Positions 19,931-57,857 of a stretch of 64,000 bases of DNA are shown piece after piece. Both the position numbers and the translations under genes were made by a program. The notes below the pieces were generated by a model that was given only the letters and a program-made list of their open reading frames with translations, was not told the origin of the DNA and ran no database searches. Source of the DNA: Paracoccus tegillarcae. GTDB taxonomy: Bacteria; Pseudomonadota; Alphaproteobacteria; Rhodobacterales; Rhodobacteraceae. The first letter of the stretch is position 1; every line of letters starts with the position of its first letter. The DNA lies in assembly GCF_002847305.1 (NCBI RefSeq), contig NZ_CP025408.1, positions 1,385,001 through 1,449,000 on the forward strand, read 5' to 3'.

Positions 19931-19934
19931 ATAC

Positions 19935-32069: not shown

Positions 32070-33281
32070 CTAGCCGGCAGAAAGACGCGGAAATGCAGCG
32101 GATGAGCGCTGCAGATCCAACGCGGGGGCCAGAAAGGGACGCACGTCTTGTGCAACCTGCACAAAATCGGATTCTGGGCGCGCCAGCAACCTGTTGCGAT
32201 CCTGTGCCAGTTGCCGGGGCGTCAGGCCCTGCAGCAATGCGGCCAGTTCGTCCGGCTGCGGCGCATCAATGACATAGCCCAGATTGTCCCGTGCGATCCG
32301 GCGCCCCGTTTCCGTGGTCCTCAGCGCGACCGAGGGGCAGCCGCACCAGCTGGCCTCGTAGATGCGGTTGGGCAGCAGCCAATCGCTATTCGTGCCCCGC
32401 TGCCACATGTCTTGCGCCCAGACCAGATCGCAACCGGCATAGGCCTGCGCCAGTCCGGTCGGATAGTCATATGGCCCCATCCATTCAACATTTTCCCTCT
32501 GCGCGAGTTCATCGTGAAAGTCGCTCAGCGCATGTTCGTGCAGCGCACCAGCGATCCGCACGCGCACGCGGTCGCCCATCAGGTCAGCGGTTTCCATCAG
32601 CAGCCGGACCGAGGCCTGACAGCGGATCGAGCCGACCAGCCCGATGGTCAGTGGCCGGCCCTCAGAGCGTGCTTCAGCAGTGGGGCGCGGCGGTCGCGCG
32701 GCGTCGTCCAGTCCCAGCCACAGCTTGTTCTCGACCAGGGCGGTTGGGCCGTCATATCCCTGCAGCGGCTGAAAATATTCGCGTACAAAGCCCGGAGATG
32801 AGACGACCAGCAACGAAGCCCGCGCCAGCACCCGCCGCTCGGCCGCCCGCATGACGCGACCGACCCTGCCGGGGCGTGTCATCAGATCGTGGATGTCCAG
32901 ACACTCATAGACCAGAGGCGCCGGGCGCCGGCCCGCGCGCAGACCCGCCAGGCGCCGTGCCGTCAACGCGATCAGCGCCAGATCCAGATTACGGGCAATG
33001 ATGACTTGCGCCTCGGACAGCGCCCGCCAGCCTGACATCGCCCGTTGCACAGCGCGCGCCGATCCAAGCGCGCGGCCCTTGATATCGTTGTGACGCACGA
33101 GCCCCAGATCGATATTGCGCCATTCCGGCTGGAAATCGGGGCTGCCCTCGCGACGCTGGCAGAACGAGGTCACCTCGCAGCCAAGCGCAATCAACGAACG
33201 GATCCGCCGGATCTGCGCAGCCTCTGCGAGATCAAAGCCGAAAACGGCGACCTTCAGGCCAGGAGGGACAGCACCGGTCAT
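32070..33281 (-). CDS. Glycosyltransferase (GT-B fold, family 4-like)
   Basis: A 403-residue cytoplasmic glycosyltransferase. It starts with the Rossmann entry VAVFGFDLAEAAQIRRI and has an LVYECLDIHDL segment typical of GT4-like GlcA/mannosyl transferases. The C-terminal sugar-nucleotide domain includes LTIGLVGSIRC, VEWMGPYDYPTGLAQAYAG and NRIYEASWCGCPSVAL. It presumably adds one sugar to the undecaprenyl-linked repeat unit. It is the last of a chain of minus-strand genes joined by 4-bp overlaps. Sugar specificity cannot be read. Confidence 0.82.
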   Translation of the reverse strand: MTGAVPPGLKVAVFGFDLAEAAQIRRIRSLIALGCEVTSFCQRREGSPDFQPEWRNIDLGLVRHNDIKGRALGSARAVQRAMSGWRALSEAQVIIARNLDLALIALTARRLAGLRAGRRPAPLVYECLDIHDLMTRPGRVGRVMRAAERRVLARASLLVVSSPGFVREYFQPLQGYDGPTALVENKLWLGLDDAARPPRPTAEARSEGRPLTIGLVGSIRCQASVRLLMETADLMGDRVRVRIAGALHEHALSDFHDELAQRENVEWMGPYDYPTGLAQAYAGCDLVWAQDMWQRGTNSDWLLPNRIYEASWCGCPSVALRTTETGRRIARDNLGYVIDAPQPDELAALLQGLTPRQLAQDRNRLLARPESDFVQVAQDVRPFLAPALDLQRSSAAFPRLSAG

Positions 33282-34183
33282 ACCGGGTCGCGACCGTAAA
33301 GTTGTGCCTGCGGCTTATCCAACAGACCTGCGACCACGCCGCGATGCAACTGGCCGCGCAAATACCAGAAATTACGCTGCGTTTCATCACTGCCCGACAG
33401 GTGCTCACGCAGCCGGCAGTAGGCCGCCTTGGCCCGCGCCGTCACCATCAGACGGGCGCGCGCGACCGCCGTTTGCGCGTTGATGATATGGGTCTGCCCC
33501 ATGCGATAGCGCCGCTCGCCCAACCAATCCAGCGTCTGCCGCCCGGTGGGAACCGGCTCGGTCACCACGGCCAGCGGCGCGGCCGAGAAACGGGCGCCCA
33601 TGCCGTGAAGGCGCAAAAAGAACTCGGTATCCTCGCCCCCGGTCGTGCCGCGCGCCAGATCATAGCGCTGGCCCTGCCAAGGCGCGCCATGCCAGCGCAG
33701 CGCGACATTGCCGCTGTTGCCGGTCCGGATATGACGGCCCAGATGTTCGGGGTGAGAGGAATGGAAATCCAGCACCTTGACCCACTCGGGCGCCTCTTGC
33801 GGGTAAACCGCAAGAACCTTGCCGAAACTGCCGTCATGGCCGCTGGTCGCCTTCATCAGTTCGACCAGCCATTCGCGACTGACCGTTTCATCGTCGTCCA
33901 GACTGGCGATCCAGTCGGCACCACGCGCGCTGGCGGCATCCAGGCAGGCGTTGCGCGCCAGTGAAATGTTGCGCGCCGGCGCATGGATGTAGAGACAGGG
34001 AAAGGGCAGCGACGCCGCAGCCTGTTCAACGACCGCACGGGCGCTGTCGGTATCGTCATTATCGGCGATGACCAGTCGCAGCTCGCTGTTTGCGGGCCGG
34101 TCGATCTTTCCGATGGCTGTGATCGCTTCGCCGACCTCGGGGCGGCGAAAGGTGCACATGAGGATGTCGATCTTGGTCGTCAT
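33278..34183 (-). CDS. Glycosyltransferase family 2
   Basis: A 301-residue GT-A enzyme with the GT2 entry KIDILMCTFRRPEVGEAI, a nucleotide-binding VIADNDDTDS and the catalytic DxD-like ASLDDDETVSREW. A later GEDTEFFLRLHGMG resembles the ED acceptor motif. It is predicted to be soluble. The ATG at 34183 overlaps the upstream stop (ATGA), and its own stop overlaps the next start, indicating tight coupling. It probably extends the exopolysaccharide repeat unit. Confidence 0.87.
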   Translation of the reverse strand: MTTKIDILMCTFRRPEVGEAITAIGKIDRPANSELRLVIADNDDTDSARAVVEQAAASLPFPCLYIHAPARNISLARNACLDAASARGADWIASLDDDETVSREWLVELMKATSGHDGSFGKVLAVYPQEAPEWVKVLDFHSSHPEHLGRHIRTGNSGNVALRWHGAPWQGQRYDLARGTTGGEDTEFFLRLHGMGARFSAAPLAVVTEPVPTGRQTLDWLGERRYRMGQTHIINAQTAVARARLMVTARAKAAYCRLREHLSGSDETQRNFWYLRGQLHRGVVAGLLDKPQAQLYGRDPV

Positions 34184-35205
34184 CGGCCTGATCCCTTGAT
34201 TATTCCGGTCAGAAAGCCCGCCCCCCAAGGCAGGTGCATGGCTGCAAGCGCCGGTCCCGCCAACAAGCCGCACGGGCTGCGATGGCGCAGTGTCATCCAG
34301 ACCGAGGCCGCACCCAGAACCGCCAGATAGAGCAGCGGCCAGATCGCAGCCAACCAACCCGCACCGGCCAGTGCAAGCACCGCGCTGGCAAGCAAAAGGA
34401 CCAGGTTCAGCGCGGGTGCCATCTGGCGCAGGCGTGGGCGCATCCGGTGCCTGGTCACTGTTCGCGCGCGGCCCTTGCCATAATTCCAGTATTGCCGGGC
34501 AAGGCCGCGAAGATCGGGGCGCATCCGGTAATCCAGCCGCAGATCGCGCGCCAGCCAGATCCGCCCGCCAGCCGCACGGATACGCTGATCAAGCTCGGCA
34601 TCCTCGTTATGGCTGAAGCTGGCATCATAGCCGCCGACGCGCCGGAACCAGCCCATATCCATCGCCGCGTGGTGCCCGTGATCGACCTCGCCCGAGGCCT
34701 TGCCGCCCCGATGCGCCGATCCGCCGCTGCCCAGCGGGGTATCGACGATCCACGCGGCCGCACGGCCAAAGCAGGTCGTCCCAGTGGAATCCATCGGCAC
34801 GACAACCGATGCCACGTCCATTTGCACAAGACGATCAGCCGCCCGCATCGCATAGCCCGGCGGATAGATCGCGTGCGCATCGGCACGGATCAGCACTCTG
34901 TGATGCGGCTGAGCGTGCGCCTGGACCGCCAGATTGAGACCAGCAGATTGCAGCCGTTGCGGGTTTTGGATCAATCGCAGCCGGGGAAACTCACGCGTCA
35001 GTCTGGCAACAATCTGATCTGTGCCGTCGCTGCTGCCACCATCCGCCACGATAACCTCGCAGTCCGTCAAGCGCGGATCGCCCGCGAAAAGCGAGCGCAG
35101 GCATGCCTCGATCCCGCGCGCCTCGTTCAACGCAGGCACGACGATCAGCACCTCTGCGCCGGAAACTACGCTGTCAGAGGCGATATCGGATTGATGGACG
35201 GTCAT
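34180..35205 (-). CDS. Membrane-anchored GT2 glycosyltransferase (ExoA-like)
   Basis: A 341-residue GT2 enzyme with LIVVPALNEARGIEACLRSL at the N-terminus, VIVADGGSSDGT, the DxD equivalent in IRADAHAIYPPGY and HNEDAELDQRIRAAGG. It has C-terminal hydrophobic helices (about 270-330) that anchor it. This arrangement matches ExoA of succinoglycan synthesis. The ATG at 35205 overlaps the flippase stop (ATGA). It should act on the lipid-linked intermediate made by the ExoY-type transferase. Confidence 0.86.
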   Translation of the reverse strand: MTVHQSDIASDSVVSGAEVLIVVPALNEARGIEACLRSLFAGDPRLTDCEVIVADGGSSDGTDQIVARLTREFPRLRLIQNPQRLQSAGLNLAVQAHAQPHHRVLIRADAHAIYPPGYAMRAADRLVQMDVASVVVPMDSTGTTCFGRAAAWIVDTPLGSGGSAHRGGKASGEVDHGHHAAMDMGWFRRVGGYDASFSHNEDAELDQRIRAAGGRIWLARDLRLDYRMRPDLRGLARQYWNYGKGRARTVTRHRMRPRLRQMAPALNLVLLLASAVLALAGAGWLAAIWPLLYLAVLGAASVWMTLRHRSPCGLLAGPALAAMHLPWGAGFLTGIIKGSGR

Positions 35206-36578
35206 GCCGGCGCCCCGCTGTTGGTCGATGCCGCGCGCAGGTGGCGCAGGCTGAGTAATGTGGTGTCGACGCCTAGTCTGCTGCGGCACAGCCAGGCCAT
35301 GATCGCCAGGTTGACCAGATGGCCGATCACCGCACCGACCGCAGCGCCGGTCAGGTCACCCATCACGCCACCCAGCGTCACCGCCAGAATCGTTGCGGTG
35401 GCACCGATGACATTGCCGGTGAAATCCAGCCGGCCCTGCCCACGTGACGACAGCACGATCGATGCCGGCCCGAACAGGATCGAACCCGCTGGCAAGAGCA
35501 GCAGAACCATCATCGCTGGCCATGCAGCAAGATAGTCGGCGCCGAACCAGCCCAGAATCCAATGTCCCAGCCCCAACAGCAGCCCTCCGCCCAAGGACAG
35601 GCCAGCCAGCTTGATCGCGCTCGACACGGCCAACAGCCGGTCACGGCGCGCACCATCGTCGCCGGCCATCGCATGGGCAATGCGCGGACTGAAGGCGACA
35701 TCGACGGCGACAACGCCGAAATTGACGATATTGATGATCGAGAACGCGATCGCAAACAGACTAAGTTGTGCAGGTAGCAGGACAATTGCCGAAGCCGCGA
35801 TCAGCAGGGCCTTGCGATACTCGCTCATCATCAGGCCGGGCGACAGCCACAGACCCAGCGAAAGCCAGTTGCGCCAACCCTCGGTGTTCGCCGGCTGATC
35901 CTTGAAACGGCCGAGGTCATTGCGCAGCAGATAGTGCTGCACGGTAACGGTCAGCGCCTCCGACAGGGCATAAAGCGCGGCGACGTGCCATGGTTGCAGG
36001 CGCCAATCAGCCAGCCAGACGATACCCAGCCCGACTGTCATCACGATCGGACCCATCAGCAGACGGGGCAACAGCCCCTTTCGCATCACCCCAAGCGCGG
36101 TCGCGTGTCGGGATGTCATCCGTGCCAGCGCGACCATGATCGCGCCCAAGGCAACGAACAGGATCACGCGGACCGACAGTTCCGGTGCGGCGAACAGCCC
36201 GTGCCAGAGCAGCGCCAACATTGCCAAAAACGGCACTGAAAACAGCATGATGCGGCGGTTAAAGCGGATAAATCCAGCCGCCTGATCCAACCGGCCCTCG
36301 CGCATCGCTGGCACCAGCGTTCGAACCGCCCCGGATTCAACATTCAACGTCAGCAGGATCGAAAACAACTGCGCCATTGCAATGGCCTGAAAGGCGATGC
36401 CGGACAGGCTGGGCTGCACCAGACGCACCAGCAGCATCGTCCAGACCAAAGCCAGCACATTCGCGCCGACCCGCGCGACGATCAGCAACAGCGAATCGAC
36501 CAGCCCGGCGAGATATTCACGCCGGGGCTTGTCGATTCGCGTCACCGTTTGGGGCGTGGTCTGGGTCACGTTTCGCAT
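35202..36578 (-). CDS. Wzx-type polysaccharide flippase (MOP superfamily)
   Basis: A 458-residue polytopic membrane protein with about 12-14 predicted helices. It resembles oligosaccharide flippases of the Wzx/ExoT type (LLIVARVGANVLALVWTMLLVRLVQP at the start, read as VARVGANVLALVW). It would move the undecaprenyl-diphosphate repeat unit across the inner membrane for polymerisation. It is the first gene of the four-gene minus-strand chain. The ATG at 36578 has a GGAAC-type weak Shine-Dalgarno upstream. Confidence 0.85.
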   Translation of the reverse strand: MRNVTQTTPQTVTRIDKPRREYLAGLVDSLLLIVARVGANVLALVWTMLLVRLVQPSLSGIAFQAIAMAQLFSILLTLNVESGAVRTLVPAMREGRLDQAAGFIRFNRRIMLFSVPFLAMLALLWHGLFAAPELSVRVILFVALGAIMVALARMTSRHATALGVMRKGLLPRLLMGPIVMTVGLGIVWLADWRLQPWHVAALYALSEALTVTVQHYLLRNDLGRFKDQPANTEGWRNWLSLGLWLSPGLMMSEYRKALLIAASAIVLLPAQLSLFAIAFSIINIVNFGVVAVDVAFSPRIAHAMAGDDGARRDRLLAVSSAIKLAGLSLGGGLLLGLGHWILGWFGADYLAAWPAMMVLLLLPAGSILFGPASIVLSSRGQGRLDFTGNVIGATATILAVTLGGVMGDLTGAAVGAVIGHLVNLAIMAWLCRSRLGVDTTLLSLRHLRAASTNSGAPA

Positions 36579-36630
36579 TCAAGTTCCAAAGAGGTACGGG
36601 CCGCTGCGTACCTGGTAAAAGTCTTTCGAG

Positions 36631-36843
36631 ATGAGGCTGGTAAAATGGCTTTTTCCATGCTGCTATGTCGCGATGCCGCTTGGATTATTGTTCATCTCGC
36701 TTCTGTGTGGGGCGCTCGGGGCCCTGGTCGCGCGGGTCGGCTTTGGCCTGTCATGGCCAATGTCGACGGTTGTCCTGATCCTGTTGGCGAATCTGATCGT
36801 TGGTGTCGGCCTGTTTTGGCTGGGCCGACACCGCAGAAAATAG
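36631..36843 (+). CDS. Small two-helix membrane protein (hypothetical)
   Basis: A 70-residue ORF in the 270-bp gap between the flippase and the ExoY-type transferase, on the opposite strand to both. It has two clear hydrophobic segments (about 8-34 and 43-63), a positively charged start (MRLVK) and a basic tail (GRHRRK), so it reads as a genuine inner-membrane mini-protein. No Shine-Dalgarno is strong, and I recognise no family. Its end is 5 bp from the convergent sugar transferase stop. It could modulate the assembly machinery; that is speculation. Confidence 0.5.
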   Translation: MRLVKWLFPCCYVAMPLGLLFISLLCGALGALVARVGFGLSWPMSTVVLILLANLIVGVGLFWLGRHRRK

Positions 36844-36848
36844 CCAGA

Positions 36849-37550
36849 TTACCGACCGGTCGCACCCAGCACCACGCCAATCGTTTGCGCCAGGATCGCC
36901 AAATCGCCGACCAACCCGAAATTGCGCGCGTAAGTCTGATCCAGCTGCACACGCTCATCGTAGGTTACATCGTTGCGACCGCTGACTTGCCATTTGCCGG
37001 TCAGTCCGGGGCGCATGGCAAGATAGCTTTGACAGGCCTCACCGTATTTCGACAACTCTGAGGCAGTCACTGGACGCGGGCCGACCAGGCTCATCTCGCC
37101 CCGCAAGACGTTCAACAGTTGCGGCAATTCATCCATGCTGCTTCGACGCAGAACATTGCCGAGCCCGGTTACCCGAGGATCGTCAGTCAGCTTTTGGGTC
37201 TCGCGCCATTCCTGACGGGCCTCCACATCCGAGGCCAGCAGCTTTTCCAGCCGTTTGTCGGCATCTGCCGCCATGGTCCGGAACTTGAGGCAGCCGAACT
37301 CTTCCCCGAACTGGCCAATGCGCGTGTGGGTAAACAATGCGCCGCCCGCTTGCGTGAGTTGCAATAGCGAGATGACCAGAATGATCGGTGAGAACACCAC
37401 AAGCAGAATGATGGCGCCCGTGATGTCGAGATAGCGCTTGCCGCGCTTTGCGTAAAAACCGCCGCCTTGCTCGACTGCTGGTGGAGTAGCCGAATCCTGC
37501 GACGGACGAGAGGGGGATTTTTGCGAAGAATCCAGAACGTTATAAATCAT
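36849..37550 (-). CDS. Undecaprenyl-phosphate sugar-1-phosphate transferase (ExoY-like)
   Basis: A 233-residue bacterial sugar transferase that starts repeat-unit synthesis by moving a sugar-1-phosphate from UDP-sugar to undecaprenyl phosphate. It has one membrane-entering helix (about 40-66), then CLKFRTM, the catalytic RRSSMDELPQLLNVLRGEMS, SLVGPRP and AMRPGLTGKWQVSGRN. These are hallmarks of the monotopic phosphoglycosyl transferase superfamily. The first 35 residues are variable and Ser/Pro rich. Its promoter should lie in the large gap upstream. Confidence 0.93.
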   Translation of the reverse strand: MIYNVLDSSQKSPSRPSQDSATPPAVEQGGGFYAKRGKRYLDITGAIILLVVFSPIILVISLLQLTQAGGALFTHTRIGQFGEEFGCLKFRTMAADADKRLEKLLASDVEARQEWRETQKLTDDPRVTGLGNVLRRSSMDELPQLLNVLRGEMSLVGPRPVTASELSKYGEACQSYLAMRPGLTGKWQVSGRNDVTYDERVQLDQTYARNFGLVGDLAILAQTIGVVLGATGR

Positions 37551-38123
37551 GTCTGTAGCTCAATAAAATTGTGTCGTGGGCTTTCTTTAACGCAGATGAA
37601 GTCAACGTGTGAGGGTACCTCGTTTCGAACAGTCGGGGCGAGATATAGTTCATTCGGACTAGCTAGGCCCTACGACATCTCGGCGGTTTTCTGCTTTCAC
37701 CCTAAATTGCACCACCGCCGGAAATGGCAGCGCTGACGGGGGTGCAACCAAGGGTAAATGCCCTTGGGTCGCGGCAGAATAAATAGCTTAATAAATGTGT
37801 ATTTTGTTCAGTCGCTTATGGTCCAGAAAGTCGCATTTTTCTGACAGACGCTATGGTTCCCTATTTTTCCAATCAGTCATAAACGTGCGCGGCTTTTCGC
37901 CGAGCACATTGCCGTGACATGACCTGAACAACCCCTGTTCTATCAATCTTAAATATAGTGTTGCAACTAACCATTCGGTTTAGTTCGAAAAAACCCGGAT
38001 ATTTAGACGTTCAACTTGCGTTCATCCAGGAATTCAGTTGCAAGCGCGGGACGTAAACCGCCGCCTGACACGACTTGACGACTCACCCGTAGGGCGAATG
38101 GAAAACGTACCGGTTCTATTAAT
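37551..38123. other. 573-bp AT-richer intergenic region between divergent polysaccharide operons
   Basis: No credible gene is present here. The region separates the ExoY-type transferase (leftward) from the PIG-L operon (rightward) and must hold both promoters. It has several dyads: CCAAGGG/CCCTTGG at 37748-37767 (6-nt loop), GTGC-CGGC/GCCG-GCAC at 37885-37907 and AACTAACC/GGTTTAGTT at 37965-37985. Such density suggests regulated expression. I could not pick a sigma-70 promoter with confidence. Confidence 0.6.
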
Positions 38124-38798
38124 ATGCTGATTAAACAAAGTTCGATTGAAACCCGCACCGCTCTGACAGTGCTCGCCCATCCCGATGACGCCGAGCTGGC
38201 TTGCTTTGGTCTGTTGGCCAAGCTGCGCAAGAATGGCTGGCGGGTTGTCATATGTATTGTAACGCGCGGCGAGAACGGTGCCGACCCCACGCAATGGGAT
38301 CGCTTGAACGAGGCGCGGGTCGCGGCGGCCCTGATCGACGCCGAGATCGTGGTGGGCGATTTCATAGATGGCTTTGTGCCGCGCACGCGCGAGTTGATTT
38401 CATGGACAGAGGCGATGTTGGTCGACCACCGTCCGGATCTGATCGTGTCTCATCATGTCGGTGAAAGCCGGACCGCGCATCAGGATCATGTTGCCGTCGA
38501 GGCGGCTGTTCAAATCGCCGTGCGGCGGACCGATTGGCTGCCGACATTGCTGCTGGCAGAGGATACAGACCATGATCCCGCCTTTCGGCCGAACTGGTTC
38601 GTCGACATCACCGACGAGTTTGAAACCAAGCTGGCCGCAATCGAAATGCACAGCTCGCAAAGTCAGAAATACTATATGCGATCCGATTACCAAAAACTGC
38701 GCAGCAACCGATGGGCCCTGAACTTCACGGCGCAATCCCATGAGGTCGCGCTGAGCAAATATTACGAAGCCTATTTTCTTGTGCAGCAAGTCAATTGA
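38124..38798 (+). CDS. PIG-L family deacetylase
   Basis: A 224-residue metal-dependent deacetylase with the zinc motif AHPDDAE (18-24) and later His residues in VSHHVGESRTAHQDH. PIG-L/LmbE enzymes remove acetyl groups from N-acetylated sugars. In this context it could deacetylate a lipid-linked or nucleotide-linked amino sugar of the polysaccharide, exposing an amine. It is first in a plus-strand run of tightly spaced genes (16 bp to the next). The start ATG at 38124 lacks a strong Shine-Dalgarno. Confidence 0.88.
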   Translation: MLIKQSSIETRTALTVLAHPDDAELACFGLLAKLRKNGWRVVICIVTRGENGADPTQWDRLNEARVAAALIDAEIVVGDFIDGFVPRTRELISWTEAMLVDHRPDLIVSHHVGESRTAHQDHVAVEAAVQIAVRRTDWLPTLLLAEDTDHDPAFRPNWFVDITDEFETKLAAIEMHSSQSQKYYMRSDYQKLRSNRWALNFTAQSHEVALSKYYEAYFLVQQVN

Positions 38799-38814
38799 TC
38801 AGCGGACGAGTGCA

Positions 38815-39705
38815 ATGACAACGATCACAGCGCCGGATCCAGACGGCATGACCACGACGGACAGCAGGGCCAACGCCCGGCCGATGGTCGATTTCGTCGT
38901 GATCGGCGCAATGCGGGCCGGCACCACGACCCTGCACAACACCCTGTCACGCCACCCTCAGATCAGCATGTCGCGCGACAAGGAGACCGACTTTTTCATT
39001 GCCGAAAAGAACCTGTCGCGCGGCGCTGACTGGTATCGCGGGCAATTCGACCCTCAGCGCCCCCTTTGGGGAGAGGCCAGTCCGAACTACACCAAGGCGC
39101 GTGATTTCGCGGGGGTGCCCGAACGCGTGGCGCAAAGGGCGCCTGACGCGCGGCTTATCTATGTCGTGCGCGACCCGGTTGCGCGCGCGGCATCTCAGTT
39201 CGAGCACAGCTGGACCATGGGCCTGCTGCGGACCCTGCCCGAGGATCTGATCGGCAGCCACGAATATCACAGCCTGATCGACATCAGCAGCTATGCCAAA
39301 CAGCTGGACCTGTGGCACGCGCATTTCCCGAATGATCAGATCCTGGTCGTCGATTTCGACGCATTGCTGGCGGAACCCGACGTTCAGGTGAATCGCATCC
39401 TGGCCCATGTCGGCGCCGAATCGATGCAACTGGACAAGCTTGCCAGCCAAAACTCTGGCCGGCAATTGTCCAAGGTGCCGCTGCCCTTGCTGCGGCTGGC
39501 ACAGGGTCCGATGCGCCCCTTGCTGACGACGGTGCTGGGGCCTCGTATGCGTGACCGGCTGCGCAGGCTGGCAGCCATCGGCCCGCGACGTGTCACCCCA
39601 AGCCTGCCAGAGCCGGTCTTGCAGCACATGCGAGACGATCTGGCCCAAGATACCGCGCGTTTCAGAGAGATGACGGGACTGGAGCTGGCACATTGGTCAG
39701 TCTGA
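38815..39705 (+). CDS. Sulfotransferase family protein (PAPS-dependent)
   Basis: A 296-residue cytosolic sulfotransferase. The 5'-phosphosulfate loop is GAMRAGTTTLHNTL (31-44), and the 3'-phosphate motif is in YVVRDPVARAASQFEHSW. The fold resembles heparan-type sulfotransferases, with carbohydrate as likely acceptor and PAPS as donor. The ATG at 38815 is preceded by GGACGAG. The first ~25 residues are Thr/Asp rich and variable. Its end overlaps the polymerase gene by 13 bp, so sulfation is encoded inside the assembly operon. Confidence 0.88.
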   Translation: MTTITAPDPDGMTTTDSRANARPMVDFVVIGAMRAGTTTLHNTLSRHPQISMSRDKETDFFIAEKNLSRGADWYRGQFDPQRPLWGEASPNYTKARDFAGVPERVAQRAPDARLIYVVRDPVARAASQFEHSWTMGLLRTLPEDLIGSHEYHSLIDISSYAKQLDLWHAHFPNDQILVVDFDALLAEPDVQVNRILAHVGAESMQLDKLASQNSGRQLSKVPLPLLRLAQGPMRPLLTTVLGPRMRDRLRRLAAIGPRRVTPSLPEPVLQHMRDDLAQDTARFREMTGLELAHWSV

Positions 39706-40994
39706 CCGCATATGATCAAGCTGCCGCGCCGCGTCGCGTGGCCCTGGCCCGTGGCGGCCAGCGTGCTGTCTGGCGGCTATACGATACCGGTCTGGCACTG
39801 ATGGTGCTGATCGCCGCTGGCGATCTGCCCAACCGCTGGGGACTGACCTCGGAACTGTGGATGCTGATCTATGGTGCGGCGCTGCTGCGGATCTTGTCGG
39901 TCTGGCCGGCCTATTTCCGGCTGCTGGCGCGCAATTGGACCTATTTGCTGTATCCTGCCGTATGCCTGCTATCGGTGGCCTGGTCGGTGGTGCCAAAAGT
40001 GTCGCTGGTCGGCGGCATCCAGATCAGCATGTCGGTTCTGATCGCCTGCTATCTTGGCTGGCGCTTTGATCCGCGACGCCTGATGATCCTCGCCTTTTCG
40101 ACCCTGTTCTTCGGCAGTGTCCTGTCGATGCTGAATTACCTCAGCGGCGGGGCCATCTCACAGCCGCTTTACAGCGATGTAGGCGGGTTGCTGGGTATCT
40201 ACACCAACAAGAACATGCTGGGCCATTATGGTGCCATGGCAACGGTGCTGGCACTGACCTTCGTTCTGACGCCGCGCGGACAGATCCCGTCGATCTTGCG
40301 CGCCGCCGCGCTGGTCGCGCTGGTGCTTTGCCCGATTGCGGTGCTGCTGTCGAAATCAATGACGGCGATCTTGCTGTTGCCGATCTATCTGGCACTGACG
40401 CTGCTACTGAACCGGCGCAGACTGGCGGGCTGGCTGCGCCATGGCGCGATTGCGGCACTGGTGCTGGCCGTGGCGCTGGCGCCTGTGCTGATGACACTGG
40501 TGGGCTTTGATCCGATGGCCGAACTGTTCGCCCGCACCGGCAAGGACGCCACTCTGACCGGACGAACCGAGCTGTGGTCGATTGCGGCGGGCGAGATCTC
40601 CAAGGCGCCGCTGACCGGCTATGGTTTTCAGGCCTTCTGGACTGCCGAACGCTTTGAAAGCGTGCGCTTCCTGGTGCTACGCGCCGGCGCCACCGCACCG
40701 ACCTTTCATAACTTCATCGCCGATACCGGCATCGGCACTGGCCTGCTGGGCATCGCGGCAATCTGTACACTGGTCTTGACCAGTCTGCGCCGGGTTCTGC
40801 GCGTCTGGAGGCTGGATGGCTCGCCCTTGGCGATCGGCTGCCTGATCACCGTCTTGATGCCAGTCAACGTTGCACTGGTCGAACCATATCTGTACCGCCA
40901 GCACGAATTTATGATGGCCTGGCTGATCATGATCGGCGTCAGCCTTGGCCGGGCCCGAACCTCACCTGTTTTCATGGATAAATTTTTACGATGA
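39693..40994 (+). CDS. O-antigen ligase/polymerase family protein (ExoQ/Wzy-like)
   Basis: A 433-residue membrane protein with about 10-12 helices. The C-terminal-half motif LTGRTELWSIAAGEI followed by PLTGYGFQAFW is typical of ExoQ and related Wzy polymerases, and YTNKNMLGHYGAM matches the G-NKN-G motif of this group. It should join translocated repeat units in the periplasm. The start is a TTG at 39693 inside the preceding gene, with GGAG about 8 nt upstream. Its stop overlaps the next ATG (ATGA). Confidence 0.87.
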   Translation: MVSLTAYDQAAAPRRVALARGGQRAVWRLYDTGLALMVLIAAGDLPNRWGLTSELWMLIYGAALLRILSVWPAYFRLLARNWTYLLYPAVCLLSVAWSVVPKVSLVGGIQISMSVLIACYLGWRFDPRRLMILAFSTLFFGSVLSMLNYLSGGAISQPLYSDVGGLLGIYTNKNMLGHYGAMATVLALTFVLTPRGQIPSILRAAALVALVLCPIAVLLSKSMTAILLLPIYLALTLLLNRRRLAGWLRHGAIAALVLAVALAPVLMTLVGFDPMAELFARTGKDATLTGRTELWSIAAGEISKAPLTGYGFQAFWTAERFESVRFLVLRAGATAPTFHNFIADTGIGTGLLGIAAICTLVLTSLRRVLRVWRLDGSPLAIGCLITVLMPVNVALVEPYLYRQHEFMMAWLIMIGVSLGRARTSPVFMDKFLR

Positions 40995-41848
40995 GAGAGC
41001 TTCCCCCATTTGAACGCTTCAAGCAGCGCTCGCGCCTTTATGCCGGGCGCTCGCTGCGCACCATGTCCGGCCAAAGCCTGCGCCACCCCTGTGTTTTCCT
41101 GCATGTTCCGAAATGCGGGGGCACGTCGGTTTCCGAGGCGCTGTATGCAACCGTTCCACTGCATCGCAAGATCGGCATCCTGGACAGCCCCTCGATCCGT
41201 CGCGCATTGGCCATTCAGAACAGCGGGCAGGATGATCAATCCTATCACGACGAAGGCCCACATGCAGCCGATGTCACCCGCTTTCGCGAATCCATGGTGC
41301 TGATGCACATGGCCCATCAAGCAACCCTGATCCATGGTCATTTCCTGTGGTCGGAAACCGCGTGGCAGCATTTCGGTGACCGCTATCGCTATGTCACGAT
41401 TTTGCGTGATCCGGTTGCGCGGACGATCTCGAACTATCGCATGGACAAGCGCAGCGGCAACTTTACCGGCGACTTCGACGCCTTTCTGGTCAGTCCAGAG
41501 GGGCGCCGAAAGGCATTGCACAAACTGCGTTACTTCAGCGGCATGGCGACCGTGACACCCGAACAAGAGGCCGAGGCACTGACCCTTGCCCGGCGCAATC
41601 TTGGCCGCATGTCCCTTATCGGCTTTCTGGACGACCTGCCGGGATTTGCACGCGATTTTGCGTCGATCTTTGGCGTCCGGCCACGGATACCGCATTACAA
41701 CAAGGCCGAGGACAAGGGCGTGGATCTGACCGATGATCAGATGAAGCGGCTAAGGGCGCTTTGCGCGCCGGATATCGAGTTGTTTGAACTTGCACAAAAG
41801 ATCGCACCCGGGCGGACGGCCGGCGCTGCGTCGGAGAACGCGGCATGA
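40991..41848 (+). CDS. Sulfotransferase family 2-like protein
   Basis: A 285-residue predicted sulfotransferase. The phosphosulfate loop is CVFLHVPKCGGTSVSEALY (34-52), the form HVPKCGGTS being typical of the sulfotransferase family 2/Gal-3-O group. The 3'-PB motif is in VTILRDPVARTISNYRM. Many such proteins act on glycans. It overlaps the polymerase and the ExoP-like gene by 4 bp each, so it is embedded in the operon. There is no signal peptide or TM, which predicts action on cytoplasmic lipid-linked intermediates. Confidence 0.87.
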   Translation: MRELPPFERFKQRSRLYAGRSLRTMSGQSLRHPCVFLHVPKCGGTSVSEALYATVPLHRKIGILDSPSIRRALAIQNSGQDDQSYHDEGPHAADVTRFRESMVLMHMAHQATLIHGHFLWSETAWQHFGDRYRYVTILRDPVARTISNYRMDKRSGNFTGDFDAFLVSPEGRRKALHKLRYFSGMATVTPEQEAEALTLARRNLGRMSLIGFLDDLPGFARDFASIFGVRPRIPHYNKAEDKGVDLTDDQMKRLRALCAPDIELFELAQKIAPGRTAGAASENAA

Positions 41849-44043
41849 CCAATCACGACACGCAATGGCGCCCCCTAAGCGCGCAAGAGGGCGAGCACGT
41901 CCCCGAAGTCGATCTGGCCAGCACCATCCGCGCGCTGCGCGCAGGCCTGGGGCGACAATGGCGGCTGATTGCGGGGCTGACGCTGATCCTGCTGGCGCTG
42001 GCGCTGGTCTATATCGCGCTGGCGACGCCGAAATACACTGCCCGGGCAGAGCTGATCGTGGACCCCCGTATCTCGAACTCTCTCTCCGGCCCCGAGGCCC
42101 CGACGCTGCTGCTGTCAGACGCGCTTGTGGTGGACAGCGAACTCAAGGTCCTCTCCTCACGCGAGGTGACAATGCAGGCCGCCGACAGCCTGGGCCTGTT
42201 CGACGCCGCACCCGAAACCGAAGAGCCGGGCGTGTTCGGCGACGTTCTGCCCCGGCTGCGCGATCTGCTGGGCGTCGAGTCCGAGGCCCTGCCGCCCGAA
42301 GTCGCAGCCAATACCGAGTCGACCCGCCGCGAGGTCATTCGTCGTGACCTGATGCGCGGCTTTGACGTCAATCGCGATGGCGGGACCTATGTGATCGACA
42401 TCGCCTATACCTCGGACGATCCGATTTTTGCGATGAACGCGGTCAACACTCTGATCGACGCCTATTTCCGCGTGTCATCAGATGCATCGCTGTCAGACAC
42501 CCGCCGCATCAGCACCTGGCTGGACCAGCGCGTCGGCGTTCTGGCCGCCGAGGTGCAGACGGCGGATCTGGCGGTGGCGAATTACCGTCGCGAGAACGAT
42601 CTGTTCACCATGCGCGACGATATCCTGCCCTCCGAGGCTGAACTGTCGGACGCGACAGACCGGCTGATCCGCCTGCGCTCTGACCTGATCGAAACGCAGA
42701 CCATGCAAGACAAGATGGAGGGCATCGTCGCCTCGGAAACCGTTGCCGCACTGATGGACGGCACGCTTGGCGGCGACGTGGCCAGCCCGGCCCTGCGCGA
42801 TGTTCAGACCCGCTTTGCCGGTCTGATTTCCGAAGAGCGCGATCTGATTGGACGTTTCGGCGCCAACAGCGATGTCGTCGCGCGCAATCGCGCAGAACAG
42901 GATCAGCTGCGCCAGTTGATGCTGGAAGAGGCCGGTCAGATCGCCCTGCGTCTTGGATCGCAACAAGAGGCGACCCGCCGCGAAATCACCGCGACCGAAG
43001 CGCAGGTCGAAGAACTAAGGGCACGCACCAATATAGACGCCGAGAAATCCATTCGCCTGCGCGAACTGGAACGTGACGCCGACGCCAAGCGCGAGCTTTA
43101 CGGCTCTATGCTGCAAGAGAGGATCTCGGCAACGCAGCGCGAGACCTTTCAGCGCGCGCCCGCCCGCGTGATCGCCCGCGCGGTGCCGCCCGACCAGATT
43201 TCATCGCCCAATGCAAAACGCCTGCTGATCCTGACCGTGTTTGCGGGCGTGATGCTGGGGGGCGCGCTTGGTTTTCTGCGTGAGGTGATGGACAGCAAGC
43301 TGCGTCGCGTCAGCGACCTGCGCGAAGGCTTGGGTTTGCGTTGGCTGGGCCTGCTGCCGCGTCTGCCGGGTGGCGAAAGTCGGCTACGGCGCCCGACGCT
43401 GCTGGTGACACCGCCCACCCGGGGCGAGGCCTCGGCCACCTTGCGCGGGCTGATCTCGGAATTGCAGCAGCGCAAGGCCGATGGCGGCACCGCGCTGATC
43501 ACCGGGATCGGTGCGGTCAGTCCCGGCGCGGGCCGCGCGGCACTGGCCGGTTGGCTATCGCGCGCCATCGCGGACTCGGGCAGCCGCGTCGCCGTGCTGG
43601 ATCTGGACGCACAACGCGCCGGTCTGTCACGGCAGCTGCCGGGTCGTGTGCTGCTGGGCGATCCGTTCCTGCCCGGCACCGTCGATGCGGATCTGGATCG
43701 CATTCGCGACGCATGGCAAGAGGGCGACCCGCTGATCCTGTCGCTGCCAGCAGAGGCCGATATCCTGACCCGCGCCCAGCAACGGGCATTGGGTGATTAT
43801 ATCACCGCGCTGCGGCCCGACCTGGATCACCTGCTGCTGATCCTGCCCCCGCTTGTCGATCGAGCCGAGGCCGACACCGCCGCCGCCCTGGCAGACACCG
43901 CCATACTTGCGCTGCGTTGGGGCGAAACCGGCATCTCACACGCGTCCGAAGCACTGGCCGCCAGCGGGACATTGCGGCACAAATTGCTGGGGGCGGTTTT
44001 CACGACAGATAAGCCAAAGGCCTTTTCCAGGTACAACCGCTAG
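41845..44043 (+). CDS. Polysaccharide co-polymerase, ExoP/Wzc-like with degenerate kinase domain
   Basis: A 732-residue chain-length regulator. TM1 is at about 41-61, then a Wzz periplasmic domain with coiled coils (about 230-440), TM2 at about 461-480 and a cytoplasmic P-loop-fold domain (about 545-720). In active BY-kinases Walker A reads GEGKST/T and Walker A' ends in DADLR. Here the equivalent positions read GIGAVSPGAGRAALA and LDLDAQR, without the Gly-Lys pair, and the C-terminus has one Tyr (SRYNR) rather than a Tyr cluster. It is therefore probably a catalytically dead or ATP-independent version that still sets chain length with the ExoQ-like polymerase. Confidence 0.88.
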   Translation: MTNHDTQWRPLSAQEGEHVPEVDLASTIRALRAGLGRQWRLIAGLTLILLALALVYIALATPKYTARAELIVDPRISNSLSGPEAPTLLLSDALVVDSELKVLSSREVTMQAADSLGLFDAAPETEEPGVFGDVLPRLRDLLGVESEALPPEVAANTESTRREVIRRDLMRGFDVNRDGGTYVIDIAYTSDDPIFAMNAVNTLIDAYFRVSSDASLSDTRRISTWLDQRVGVLAAEVQTADLAVANYRRENDLFTMRDDILPSEAELSDATDRLIRLRSDLIETQTMQDKMEGIVASETVAALMDGTLGGDVASPALRDVQTRFAGLISEERDLIGRFGANSDVVARNRAEQDQLRQLMLEEAGQIALRLGSQQEATRREITATEAQVEELRARTNIDAEKSIRLRELERDADAKRELYGSMLQERISATQRETFQRAPARVIARAVPPDQISSPNAKRLLILTVFAGVMLGGALGFLREVMDSKLRRVSDLREGLGLRWLGLLPRLPGGESRLRRPTLLVTPPTRGEASATLRGLISELQQRKADGGTALITGIGAVSPGAGRAALAGWLSRAIADSGSRVAVLDLDAQRAGLSRQLPGRVLLGDPFLPGTVDADLDRIRDAWQEGDPLILSLPAEADILTRAQQRALGDYITALRPDLDHLLLILPPLVDRAEADTAAALADTAILALRWGETGISHASEALAASGTLRHKLLGAVFTTDKPKAFSRYNR

Positions 44044-44074
44044 GATATAGGCGGCGCAACCACGCCTATATCCT
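44042..44074. terminator. Perfect 12-bp hairpin at the end of the ExoP-like gene
   Basis: AGGATATAGGCG pairs with CGCCTATATCCT around a 9-nt loop, and the stop codon TAG lies at the base of the stem. No T-tract follows on either strand, so classical Rho-independent termination is uncertain; it may cap or stabilise the operon transcript. Confidence 0.5.
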
Positions 44075-44149
44075 CATTCAACCGATCTTTCCGGTTTTGA
44101 ACGGGACGCGCGGGTTGACAGTACCACGTCGTTCGATAAGCACCGACAC

Positions 44150-46474
44150 ATGATTTCTGAGGCCTCGCGGACCCCTACCGATATGAGCACTGCCCTGCAC
44201 CTTACCTCCGACGCTATTCTGCCATCATTGGACCTGCCGGCCAAAAACTGGGACGTCGTCCTGACCTGTTTTGAGCCTCTCATCGCGGTCACCGGTGGCA
44301 TCGGGACCTATCACCGGCTGCTACTGCAGGAACTCGCACAGTCGGGAAAGAAGGTACTGGTACTGACCCGGGGCATGAATGCAGAGCAGGATTTTCTGCC
44401 CGAAATCGAAAAGATCAATGTCGATCTGCTCAAGCCGGCAAAGGCATTCAATTTCGTCGGTCTGGAGCACGAGTTCTTTTCGCTTCAGTGCCATTTTGCG
44501 CTGCGCGCATTGTACCAGACAGGCCATCGGTTTGGTCTTGTCGAATTCTCGGATTACGGCGCGGATGGGTTCTATCCACTGCGCGCGCGCGCGGCGGGCA
44601 TCTACGAGTTTGGCGTCGGTGCTGTCAGGCTGCACTCGCCCAGTGTCATGCTGACCGAGGATAATGGCGGCAACCATTTCAGCCTGAACGACTTCAACAG
44701 GGACCGTATTGACCGTGAAATGAGCGTCTACCAGGACGCCGACGCCATCCTGTTCGGCGGTGACGCCATGCGCGACCGCGTTCTTGAACTGACCGAGCGG
44801 TTCGGACTGGATGTCGCCGACAAGATGGTGAAATGTCCGCATCCCTATCCAAGGCACTTGTTCACAGCGATCGAAGGAGTGTCCGACGATGCGATGGGCG
44901 ATGCGCGGACGACATTGATTAACAAGGTCTGTGAAAAAAGCAGATTTGTGAAGCCGGCCGACCTTCAAACCGCGCGGTTCATCGGCGTTTTTGGCCGCAT
45001 CGAGGACCGCAAGGGTCAATTTCAGATGTTCTGGCAGGCCGTGACGGACGCCGACTTCGTCCGCTTTGTCAAAACCAGTGACTTTCACTTTTTGGTTGCC
45101 GGTCACAATGTGCTGGACCACATCGGCAACTATAGACTGAACGACCTTTACGCGCTGATCCATGAAAAGGGTTTGCAGGGTCGCATCCACTTTACCGGCA
45201 GGCTGGAACAAGACGAGCTAGCCGAATGCTCTCGTGCGGTATCGGGCTATATCTTTCCGTCGATCTTCGAGAACTATCCCAATGCGCTGCTGGAAATCCT
45301 TCCCACCTGCCGGCCGGTCGCGATCTCTGTGCATGGTTGTATGCCAGAGATTACCGAGGGCTTTTCTGACGTCGCGCTGATCGACCCGAAAGAACTGGAG
45401 ACCGAATCGCTGATTGCCTTCATGCAAGGCATACCGGTCGAAGTCGGGCCCCCGGCGGAGGATGAACTGGCCAAACGGATCGCGACATTCGAGCATCGGC
45501 AGGCCGAGATGATGGCCTATTACAAGCAGGATTTCCCGACCCCTGACGTGGACGCGAATGTCGACCTGCCCAGCCTGGGCATCGTGCTGCCGGTCTATCA
45601 GGAGCACCGCTACCTGCATCAGGCCATATCGACCGCGAAAACCGTGCTGGGCGGTGGCGAGAACATCGTCGTGGTCGATGATCATTCTGCGCCTGAAAAC
45701 GCCAGGAAAATCGCGCGGATCACCAATGAACTGGATGTCCAGCTGATCACTCTGCCGGAAAACGCTGGTCCGGCAGTCGCCCGCCTGCATGGGGTGAAGG
45801 CGCTGACCACGGATCTAGTGCAGCTATGCGACGGCGACGATCTGCTGGACCCGCAGGGCATCGCCGCGATCCACTTGATGTTCGCGCGCGATCCCGACCT
45901 GACCATGGCGACCGGCGTGATGTCCTGCTTTCAGGAAGAAAATCACTGCTGGACACCGCGTAACGGCAATATCTGGACCGCAACCGCTGCGAATTTCGGC
46001 CATAGCGGCAGCATGTTCAGACGCGACGCGCTGCTGGCGGCCCTTGGCACGCAGCATGAACGGCTGCCGCTGAACGAAGACTGGTTGATGAATCTGTTGA
46101 TCTTGGTTAAGGGCGGAAAATGCCGGATGACACCCGAGATCACCTATCACTATCGGCGCTATGGTGGTTCGCGCAGCACGCAGAATGCATCGCTGGTTGG
46201 TCGCGTTTCACGCCAGATCAATCGCATCATCAGCGATGAAATGAGCTTCCAGAACCCCGAACAAAAAGCCAGATTGCGCGAAATCTACAAGGGCTATCTC
46301 GGCTCTGTCAGCCGGCCCGGAGCGCCCGGAAGCCACATGTCGGCGCACTCCTTTCCGCTTCGCTATCAGTATCTGGACGCAGTGTTCTTCAAATTGGTAA
46401 AGATCAAAGGGATAGAACCCCTGTTCCTGAAATTGAAGAGACGGCTTGTGCAGCGCAGCAGAGTGAAGACCTAG
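44150..46474 (+). CDS. Two-domain glycosyltransferase (GT4-like fused to GT2-like)
   Basis: A 774-residue protein joining two glycosyltransferases. Residues about 35-460 form a GT-B domain (TGGIGTYHRLLLQELAQSG entry; IGVFGRIEDRKGQ and YIFPSIFENYPNALLEILPTCRP in the donor lobe). Residues about 473-700 form a GT-A GT2 domain (LGIVLPVYQEHRYLHQAI, VVDDHSAPENA, DxD in LCDGDDLLDP, LNEDWLMNLL). It probably adds two consecutive sugars. The start at the ATG 44150 has only a weak Shine-Dalgarno; an in-frame ATG at 44183 is possible. It follows a 12-bp hairpin, so it may be a separate transcript. Confidence 0.87.
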   Translation: MISEASRTPTDMSTALHLTSDAILPSLDLPAKNWDVVLTCFEPLIAVTGGIGTYHRLLLQELAQSGKKVLVLTRGMNAEQDFLPEIEKINVDLLKPAKAFNFVGLEHEFFSLQCHFALRALYQTGHRFGLVEFSDYGADGFYPLRARAAGIYEFGVGAVRLHSPSVMLTEDNGGNHFSLNDFNRDRIDREMSVYQDADAILFGGDAMRDRVLELTERFGLDVADKMVKCPHPYPRHLFTAIEGVSDDAMGDARTTLINKVCEKSRFVKPADLQTARFIGVFGRIEDRKGQFQMFWQAVTDADFVRFVKTSDFHFLVAGHNVLDHIGNYRLNDLYALIHEKGLQGRIHFTGRLEQDELAECSRAVSGYIFPSIFENYPNALLEILPTCRPVAISVHGCMPEITEGFSDVALIDPKELETESLIAFMQGIPVEVGPPAEDELAKRIATFEHRQAEMMAYYKQDFPTPDVDANVDLPSLGIVLPVYQEHRYLHQAISTAKTVLGGGENIVVVDDHSAPENARKIARITNELDVQLITLPENAGPAVARLHGVKALTTDLVQLCDGDDLLDPQGIAAIHLMFARDPDLTMATGVMSCFQEENHCWTPRNGNIWTATAANFGHSGSMFRRDALLAALGTQHERLPLNEDWLMNLLILVKGGKCRMTPEITYHYRRYGGSRSTQNASLVGRVSRQINRIISDEMSFQNPEQKARLREIYKGYLGSVSRPGAPGSHMSAHSFPLRYQYLDAVFFKLVKIKGIEPLFLKLKRRLVQRSRVKT

Positions 46475-46511
46475 GGTCACCGAATCCTCCAACTCAGAGT
46501 AGAAAGCTCAG

Positions 46512-46889
46512 ATGACAACAGCCTCTGGACAGCCTGATGAACTGACAACAGTTTTTGTCATGACCTATCGTCGGTCGGACTCCACATTGCTGCACGCCAT
46601 CATGAACGCAATGCAGGACTTGATCATCCGTGGAAAAAACAGCCTGGCCCTTGCCCCACTCTTAGAAAGCTGGCGGCGGATCAAGAAAAACAAAAACAAG
46701 TTCGCGCGGGTCGCTAACACAGCGGTTTTGCGTCCTGAATCCGATCGGCGGATCGTCGGATATAAGGAAATTCGCTACAACGGCTTCATTAAAGCGCCCG
46801 CCGAAGCGCTACATACAGCGGAGTTTGTGGGATCGACCGTTGACACCGATGCCGTAGAAAAGATTCATGGCAACCGGCTTGCACACTAG
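46512..46889 (+). pseudogene. Truncated sulfotransferase-like remnant
   Basis: A 125-residue ORF whose first half resembles the N-terminus of a sulfotransferase: FVMTYRRSDSTLLHAIMNAMQ corresponds to the phosphosulfate loop, followed by IIRGKNSLALAPLLESW and IVGYKEIRYNG. It stops where the central sheet and the 3'-phosphate motif (RDP...S) should begin, and no other frame downstream supplies the rest before the next gene. Normal members have 230-300 residues. The tail (VDTDAVEKIHGNRLAH) looks out of family. I read it as a decayed gene lying beside a complete sulfotransferase. Confidence 0.6.
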
Positions 46890-46929
46890 AAGATGTGCGA
46901 AATAGAGAATCCGAAGGCATGAGGTAGGA

Positions 46930-47670
46930 ATGGACAAGAAAATCGACAAGATCTGTTTGGTCTGCATGGATCGCACCGGATCGAACATGGTCTCTCAGCG
47001 CCTCAACACGCACCCCGAGATCATTTTCTACAACGAGGTGTTCCATCGTCAGTACATGATTTTTCACGACAAAAGGGTGAATGGCGACCCTCAAACCCTG
47101 GCAACGCGCGACGGCAAGCCAGCCGCGTTCGTATCGCAGCTTTGGTCAGGTGCCTTCGAGCCGAAAGACGAGCTTGAAAACGTCAAGGCGATTGGGTTCA
47201 AGCTCTTCCTGAACCACAATGCCGAAGCGCTGAAATACGTTGTCAACTCGGATGCCAAGCTGCTCTTTCTGCGTCGGCGCAACCCGCTTAGCCGCTTTTC
47301 AAGCTTCAAGATCGCCGCCGCGACCAACGAATGGAAATCCACGGTCCTGTCCAAGACAAAGAAGACCGTGCAATTCCACCCCCCGGAATTTCGCGCCTAT
47401 ATGCAGAACTTCACTTCGCTTGAAAGCTTGTTCGAGATGGTCGCGAACCGCTGGAATCGGCCATATTTCGACCTGTGGTACGAGGATCTGGTCAAGCGTC
47501 CCGAGGTTTGGGACAACATGTGCGAATACCTTGGCTATCCCGGCGACGCATTCGGGGAATCGCCGATCGTCAAACAGAATTCGAGTGATATTCTCAGCCG
47601 CTTCAGCAATCCCGATGTGGTGAGGGACTACGTCAGCCATCTCGGCAAGTACGAGTGGCTCAGCGAATAA
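46930..47670 (+). CDS. Sulfotransferase (Stf0-like)
   Basis: A 246-residue protein with the phosphosulfate-binding entry ICLVCMDRTGSNMVSQRLNTHP (the RTGSN part at 15-19) and a central LFLRRRNPLSRFSSFKIA that supplies the 3'-phosphate-binding Arg and Ser. A late YEDLVKRPEVWDNMCEYLG matches the family's C-terminal helix. The acceptor is unknown; a sugar is likely in this locus. GAGGTAGGA precedes the ATG. The codon usage here and in the remnant before it looks less GC-biased than in the core operon, hinting at later acquisition. Confidence 0.82.
   Translation: MDKKIDKICLVCMDRTGSNMVSQRLNTHPEIIFYNEVFHRQYMIFHDKRVNGDPQTLATRDGKPAAFVSQLWSGAFEPKDELENVKAIGFKLFLNHNAEALKYVVNSDAKLLFLRRRNPLSRFSSFKIAAATNEWKSTVLSKTKKTVQFHPPEFRAYMQNFTSLESLFEMVANRWNRPYFDLWYEDLVKRPEVWDNMCEYLGYPGDAFGESPIVKQNSSDILSRFSNPDVVRDYVSHLGKYEWLSE

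Positions 47671-54920: not shown

Positions 54921-57857
<2,937 letters not shown>

Follow-up and report, generated by a model that had tools for sequence, protein, structure and literature searches.

A Paracoccus polysaccharide locus with sulfotransferase genes and a predicted sulfated exopolysaccharide

The locus and its assembly genes

The window analyzed is a stretch of 64,000 nucleotides from Paracoccus tegillarcae (contig NZ_CP025408.1, positions 1,385,001 to 1,449,000, in a genome of 3.95 Mb on 4 contigs). At 32070..47670 it holds a polysaccharide locus in which genes for Wzx/Wzy-type assembly stand among genes for sulfotransferases (ST) and a PIG-L family deacetylase. Every gene named here is an open reading frame at the position listed below, with no internal stop. 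Two divergent gene strings flank a 573-bp gap, the leftward one in the order PGT (the priming sugar-phosphate transferase), Wzx-like, GT2a, GT2b, and GT4a, where GT stands for glycosyltransferase, and the rightward one in the order PIG-L, ST1, Wzy, ST2, and Wzc. On the 3' side of Wzc there is a tail encoding a GT4-GT2 fusion, a 125-residue sulfotransferase fragment, and ST3.

32070..33281, minus strand: GT4a, GT4-type glycosyltransferase (PF13579/PF13692 above cut-off; present in 7/7 close Paracoccus loci, L041-L047)
33278..34183, minus strand: GT2b, GT2-type glycosyltransferase (PF00535; open frame; conserved order; 4-bp overlap with each neighbour)
34180..35205, minus strand: GT2a, GT2-type glycosyltransferase (PF00535; open frame; conserved order)
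35202..36578, minus strand: Wzx-like flippase (PF01943 below cut-off; 8 hydrophobic peaks; conserved place)
36849..37550, minus strand: PGT, WbaP-like priming sugar-phosphate transferase (PF02397; TIGR03022 below cut-off)
37551..38123, no strand: divergent intergenic region (47.6% GC)
38124..38798, plus strand: PIG-L family deacetylase (PF02585; AHPDD and HQDH invariant)
38815..39705, plus strand: ST1 sulfotransferase (PF13469/PF00685; profile matches to solved sulfotransferases)
39693..40994, plus strand: Wzy polymerase, TTG start (PF04932; marker of the clade)
40991..41848, plus strand: ST2 sulfotransferase (PF03567; profile match to heparan sulfate 6-O-sulfotransferase; invariant motifs)
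41845..44043, plus strand: Wzc-like co-polymerase with a degenerate ATPase domain (PF02706, PF13807)
44150..46474, plus strand: GT4-GT2 fusion glycosyltransferase, in the tail (family match; not seen in relatives' loci)
46512..46889, plus strand: N-terminal sulfotransferase fragment (PF13469 below cut-off; not in relatives' loci)
46930..47670, plus strand: ST3, NodH-like sulfotransferase, in the tail (PF13469; not seen in relatives' loci)

The last four leftward genes, Wzx-like through GT4a, are linked by three 4-bp overlaps. In the rightward string, PIG-L and ST1 are 16 bp apart, ST1 overlaps Wzy by 13 bp if the Wzy TTG start is assumed, and the Wzy/ST2 and ST2/Wzc overlaps are both 4-bp ATGA. 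A preliminary description of this DNA had two sulfotransferases joined to the polymerase and co-polymerase by overlaps of 4-13 bp, and that is what is found. It also listed three sulfotransferase-like proteins, one remnant, and PIG-L, and these families are recognized, with the fragment itself falling below the cut-off. Judged by eye, the genes flanking the locus are a sensor kinase/regulator pair on one side and an RND-type pump on the other. Elsewhere in the window, both on the minus strand, there are a serC leader (19930-19981) and a TPP riboswitch (57744-57864), the latter scoring exactly at the gathering threshold.

PGT matches PF02397 with 193.8 bits (cut-off 27) and TIGR03022 with 284.5 bits (E = 1.9e-84), which is under the TIGR03022 cut-off of 403. 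Wzy matches PF04932 with 59 bits (cut-off 31.7), a family named 'O-Antigen ligase' by Pfam and including polymerases as well as ligases. The co-polymerase has the Wzz domain PF02706 (36.1 bits, cut-off 25.5) and the GNVR domain PF13807 (31.1 bits, cut-off 27.7), and it scores 204.3 bits against the exopolysaccharide transport family TIGR01005, under its 411.7 cut-off. The P-loop lysine and the C-terminal tyrosine cluster are missing from this Wzc-like protein (41845-44043) in the window and from its 8 close aligned orthologs. The kinase domain therefore looks inactive throughout the clade. An active kinase domain occurs in many, not all, such co-polymerases. Four glycosyltransferase genes are present, one of them the two-domain fusion; because none has an NCBIfam match above cut-off, the sugars cannot be named.

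Two Wza genes for outer-membrane export are encoded elsewhere in the genome, one beside capsule genes and one beside a second polysaccharide locus. That second locus (L037, G000:C1:1274001-1294000) contains Wza, Wzx, and a protein with WecG-type and sugar-transferase domains. In L036 (G000:C1:3322001-3342000), a Wza-type exporter gene is flanked by two Capsule_synth genes, which we take to be KpsS/KpsC-like.

The sulfotransferases and the Wzy clade

ST1 scores 73.2 bits against PF13469 (cut-off 27) and 60.3 bits against PF00685 (cut-off 22), ST2 scores 26.1 bits against PF03567 (cut-off 22), and ST3 scores 29.9 bits against PF13469, for which the fragment reaches 18.2 bits. The genome was searched with PF13469 and PF03567 and has 8 genes over cut-off for these two across its 3.95 Mb, 3 of them inside 8.9 kb of the locus (binomial 6e-7 for this single interval, uncorrected for the choice of interval). 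Chance clustering was rejected on the basis of that concentration and of recurrence in relatives.

When profiles are compared with solved proteins, ST1 matches heparan sulfate 3-O-sulfotransferase best (E = 2.2e-33), almost equaled by 3rnl, an entry named 'Sulfotransferase' (E = 1.4e-32). It scores E = 2.5e-25 against the heparan N-deacetylase/N-sulfotransferase NDST, and cytosolic SULT is far behind at 8e-8. The ST2 profile finds heparan sulfate 6-O-sulfotransferase at 1.4e-12 and then 2-O-sulfotransferase at 2.6e-3. Since, to our knowledge, few bacterial polysaccharide sulfotransferases have solved structures, these matches indicate a carbohydrate O-sulfotransferase type, not heparan, and that is the type predicted for both ST1 and ST2. 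Residue conservation was followed in the alignments. In ST2, HxPKCGGTS and HGH are invariant along with R139, P141, R144, and S147 in a 12-row alignment, the motifs also being invariant in 58 aligned relatives. In ST1, K56-E57 and a 3' motif (R119-D-P, R124, S127) are invariant and the 5' motif just partly so. We take these to be the 5' and 3' motifs of the site for the sulfate donor 3'-phosphoadenosine 5'-phosphosulfate (PAPS), and the ST1 glutamate and ST2 histidine are presumably catalytic.

By hydropathy alone, PIG-L, ST1, ST2, and ST3 have no 19-residue hydrophobic peak above 1.6. As PAPS is cytoplasmic, we infer from these two points that modification precedes flipping. For PAPS supply, the genome encodes a 569-residue bifunctional ATP sulfurylase-APS kinase. 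ST3 matches PDB 9vki, named 'LPS sulfotransferase NodH' (E = 8.7e-9), and its family appears to be small, with 19 proteins, itself included, among the matches listed by a word-based search of 5.8 billion proteins.

The ST2 search set has 196 genomes, of which 121 are from the genus, this one among them, and 75 are single ones from other genera. ST2 is found at E ≤ 1e-3 in 15 of them, 12 at an identity of at least 44% and three as weak fragments. Both gene strings recur in eight genus relatives, L025-L032, with exceptions. L032 (G061, a metagenome assembly) has PIG-L missing on its contig and both strings on the same strand, while the loci of L028 (G053) and L029 (G070) are without ST1, and in L029 GT2a and GT2b are also unmatched and Wzx and GT4a matched only partly. 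The best-conserved protein of the locus is ST2, 84% identical between the window and L025, as against 60-76% for the others. The seven close Paracoccus loci L041-L047, six of which share contigs with L025-L032, include those of P. siganidrum (G053), P. yeei (G038; L044), P. shanxieyensis (G032), and P. mutanolyticus (L047). In L047, the matches to PIG-L, to Wzy, and to Wzc are each split in two. The copy in P. zhejiangensis (G006), whose Wzx-like ortholog is annotated as a hypothetical protein in PLSDB, is on plasmid pPZ01 between thiamine and phenylacetate genes. Because those surroundings differ from the ones in the window, the conserved unit seems to be mobile as a whole.

The conserved unit is 32070-44043, ending at Wzc. 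In 58 compared stretches of relatives (about 10-21 kb each, several from the same genome fetched twice, and with copies elsewhere in those genomes outside their scope), ST3 and the fragment have no match at E ≤ 1e-2, and the GT4-GT2 fusion has none over 60% of its length. Nor is there a second full-length match to the fusion among those in a capped listing for the 196 genomes (no more than 5 candidates scored in each), and the tail DNA matched no plasmid record. The tail has 52-57% GC versus 61% for the window. The whole 15.6 kb was rejected as a single conserved unit since the tail genes are not found in the relatives' loci. Conserved gene order, which the preliminary description had proposed to look for across genomes, thus stops after Wzc. 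The fragment and ST3 are present in the locus as it said, but both belong to the tail.

Relatives picked by ST2 (43 loci) carry ST2 by construction and cannot answer whether the sulfotransferases are associated with the locus, so the association was re-tested on loci chosen by Wzy alone. At E ≤ 1e-30, 22 of the 23 Wzy-chosen loci have ST1 and/or ST2 nearby. Within the genus, Wzy reaches that level in 13 genomes (own included), and ST2 is in the same locus in 12 of the 13. In a family-wide sample of 394 genomes it is reached in 11, own included. The remaining 10 represent 10 further genera, and every one has a sulfotransferase of these two kinds within about 10 kb (ST1 and ST2 in 7, ST1 only in 2, ST2 only in 1), with at least four of these contigs overlapping the ST2-chosen set. 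Nearby refers here to the stretch read, which in 8 of the 10 reaches at least about 9 kb to either side, L099 having 7.2 kb on one side and L103 having 5.0 and 7.5 kb. As a control, profiles for ST1, ST2, and PIG-L find nothing at E ≤ 1e-3 in any of 8 more distant Wzy loci. These are 8 of the 22 such places in the genus, with Wzy E-values between 3e-29 and 6e-26. Five are the top-ranked ones and three were selected by hand, and all reach about 9 kb or more in both directions apart from L113, with 4.4 kb before Wzy. The GT4a, GT2a, and GT2b trio is found at 34-46% identity in 5 of the 8 controls. So the sulfotransferases follow this Wzy clade, with related backbone enzymes also in loci without them. 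The Fisher value for the association is 1e-6, ignoring shared ancestry. The 18 weak ST2 relatives L066-L083 have no Wzy relative at E ≤ 1e-5. An ST1 search matched 129 of the 196 genomes, mostly as distant paralogs over short stretches, for which reason ST1 presence was judged only by high identity and place.

Natural variants bear on how tightly sulfation is built in. L094 (G118) keeps the gene order GT4a, GT2b, GT2a, Wzx, PGT, PIG-L, Wzy (58%), and Wzc. Its aligned stretches are separated by 215 bp for PIG-L/Wzy and by 202 bp for Wzy/Wzc, so both ST1 and ST2 are absent. Across the whole G118 genome, ST2 finds no match and ST1 none above 33% identity. The Wzy tree places G118 with sulfotransferase-bearing loci and unites G053 and G070 (100/100), a pattern suggestive of sulfotransferase losses in G118 and in G053/G070; with 4 of 16 inner forks open and outgroups chosen by ST2, the direction of gain or loss is tentative. 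With G118 lacking both and two relatives lacking ST1, sulfation looks like a conserved but removable decoration. The preliminary description had called it integral, which is right in that the sulfotransferases belong to the locus and too strong as to necessity.

ST1 orthologs also occur in other settings. G053, whose polysaccharide locus is without ST1, has one alone elsewhere (L095:9352-10224, 60% identical), its neighbours being an alpha/beta hydrolase, a histone-deacetylase-type gene, a polyprenyl synthetase, and DXP synthase. In L096 and L097 (G119, G004), ST1 is beside PGT, GT2a, GT2b, and GT4a, and in L096 Wzx too, on a contig other than that of the ST2 locus; the G119 match reads through one TGA.

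Deacetylation and competing readings

PIG-L matches PF02585 with 72 bits (cut-off 28.2; E = 8.6e-20), and its AHPDD and HQDH motifs are invariant in an alignment of 8 sequences, one of them from the window. The solved proteins listed for its profile include LnmX, diacetylchitobiose deacetylase, and LmbE-type enzymes but not NDST. PIG-L is present in 9 of 10 close Wzy orthologs (window, L025-L032, L094), including L094 with its lack of sulfotransferases. It is kept in three loci without ST1 (L028, L029, L094), and L032 has both ST1 and ST2 with PIG-L missing. PIG-L was found in 0 of 18 more distant ST2-chosen loci at E ≤ 1e-2, two of them Paracoccus, and by profile in 0 of 10 Wzy-chosen loci of other genera. 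We therefore rejected PIG-L as an obligate partner of sulfation. The two modifications seem to have been added independently of each other, an argument against an obligatory pairing of N-deacetylation with N-sulfation, although N-sulfation may occur in those Paracoccus that have PIG-L together with the sulfotransferases.

We consider it likely that this Wzx/Wzy-route locus makes a sulfated exopolysaccharide, by cytoplasmic O-sulfation of a lipid-linked repeat unit before export. The observations behind this are gene content, order, conservation, family membership, motifs, and the PAPS gene, from which the substrates, the order of steps, and sulfate on the product are predicted. PGT would start the repeat unit on the lipid carrier, and GT2a, GT2b, and GT4a, plus the GT4-GT2 fusion in this strain, would extend it. 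PIG-L would take the N-acetyl group off one amino sugar, and ST1 and ST2 would each transfer sulfate from PAPS onto defined hydroxyls. All of this would take place on the cytoplasmic side, ahead of flipping by Wzx. Wzy and Wzc would then polymerize the flipped unit, with export probably by a Wza encoded elsewhere. Sulfation would be a conserved, removable decoration of a polymer also able to exist unsulfated, and ST3 a strain-specific extra. The occurrence of ST1 and/or ST2 in nearly all Wzy-chosen loci makes a sulfated exopolysaccharide the best reading, in agreement with the preliminary description.

Several points weigh on the other side. The Wzx-like protein scores 23.5 bits against PF01943, under the cut-off of 28.2, and is called a flippase because of its position, its conservation, and its 8 hydrophobic peaks, not its Pfam score. 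No Wza is encoded within the locus. The assembly set had been described as complete, a description to be qualified on this account. Searching with the single ST2 sequence finds no convincing solved sulfotransferase (heparan 6-O-sulfotransferase at 0.025, behind designed repeat proteins at 3e-4), and only 8 of 12 aligned ST2 relatives match PF03567 at E ≤ 0.01. Also, the assembly machinery does not seem to need ST1 or ST2, judging by the G118 locus.

Among alternatives, the product might be a sulfated capsule or O-antigen, not a released exopolysaccharide, with the PF04932 protein acting as a ligase. The Pfam name of that family and the capsule-type locus with Wza elsewhere in the genome fit this idea, and the large Wzz/GNVR co-polymerase, with its match to the exopolysaccharide transport family, argues the other way. 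We regard it as unlikely; it is compatible with sulfation and would alter only the kind of polymer. It is very improbable that the sulfotransferases have a lipid or small molecule as their substrate and stand in this locus only incidentally. Substrates are not readable from sequence, and the lone ST1 ortholog of G053 is among non-polysaccharide genes, but an incidental placement does not agree with the start-stop overlaps or with the presence of ST1 and/or ST2 in 22/23 Wzy loci of the clade versus 0/8 sampled from the next.

The remaining question is how far the likeness to heparan goes. PIG-L might free the amine of N-acetylglucosamine, ST1 N-sulfate it, and ST2 O-sulfate the chain, giving a bacterial N-sulfated aminoglycan. 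PIG-L and ST1 adjoin here, and ST1 is related to NDST as ST2 is to heparan 6-O-sulfotransferase, but ST1 is closer to the 3-O-sulfotransferases, and the distribution described above, with PIG-L persisting without a locus ST1, ST1 and ST2 without PIG-L in L032, and PIG-L in none of the more distant ST2-chosen or Wzy-chosen loci, makes this decidedly doubtful. As a long shot, the product would be a heparan-like sulfated aminoglycan, its amino sugar de-N-acetylated and then N- and O-sulfated on the cytoplasmic lipid-linked repeat unit, with PIG-L a later Paracoccus addition to an older O-sulfated polymer of the Rhodobacterales. If so, every repeat would have an identical sulfation pattern, unlike irregular animal heparan. 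Heparan sulfate biosynthesis (3-OST, 6-OST, NDST) resembles the present system in that ST1 and ST2 are distant sequence relatives of its enzymes. There, the deacetylase and N-sulfotransferase are one protein, and here they are separate, apparently cytoplasmic enzymes; heparan sulfate is modified as a finished polymer in the Golgi. Of the heparan-type modification first suggested, the relatedness of ST1 and ST2 to heparan O-sulfotransferases is retained, and the coupling of N-deacetylation to N-sulfation is not.

Known systems and significance

The closest well-studied system is the synechan xss cluster of Synechocystis PCC 6803. According to the available text (PMC8205485), it has Wzx/Wzy assembly, a co-polymerase, two sulfotransferases of different subfamilies, and an outer-membrane exporter gene located elsewhere. 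Wzx/Wzy machinery and sulfotransferases in one cluster are present here as well, with the flippase below cut-off. The xss cluster is cyanobacterial and has eight glycosyltransferases and the regulators XssQ, XssR, and XssS, and its sulfate was proven chemically, whereas sulfate here is predicted from genes. The word 'deacetylase' is missing from the main text of that paper. In the protein-family scans, no gene of the locus matched a regulator family, and no search was aimed at XssQ/XssR/XssS.

As of 2021, sulfotransferase genes in further bacterial clusters for extracellular polysaccharide were not known to the synechan authors, as stated in the available text (PMC8205485), and a putative one had been described in such a cluster of Pontiella sulfatireligans in 2020 (PMC7356697, available part). 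Later reports include Cobetia and Vibrio capsules, Shark Bay mat Alphaproteobacteria by gene content (PMC9723792, in part), and wps-1 of Actinoplanes missouriensis. From the accessible portion of PMC13390465, wps-1 resembles our locus in having Wzx/Wzy genes and two predicted sulfotransferases of different families, one heparan-type, and its sulfation is likewise predicted from genes. It differs in being from an actinomycete and having methyltransferase, kinase-like, and GH26 genes, and the word 'PIG-L' is missing from that paper. The capsules of Cobetia marina KMM 1449 and Vibrio sp. KMM 8419 (PMC11766843, PMC11641403, available parts) also have sulfotransferases within a surface polysaccharide locus. 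There, sulfate is part of a determined structure, the capsules are of the ABC-transporter type, and the PAPS genes are inside the cluster.

Nearer to the present organism, Paracoccus zeaxanthinifaciens subsp. payriae is cited as a sulfated polysaccharide producer in a review whose accessible text attaches no locus (PMC4189415), and the exopolysaccharide of Salipiger mucosus, with 0.9% sulfate, is likewise reported with no locus attached in the part of the source available. The P. yeei genome paper (PMC11578231) mentions a capsule; the term sulfotransferase is absent from its available text, even though this species carries the locus. Titles and abstract starts of the open-access papers searched gave none on this locus.

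The locus is thus a candidate genetic basis for sulfated exopolysaccharide in the Rhodobacterales. Its orthologs form a graded natural series with two, one, or no sulfotransferases, by which the effect of sulfation on a single polymer becomes testable, and the sulfotransferases are themselves candidates for controlled enzymatic sulfation.

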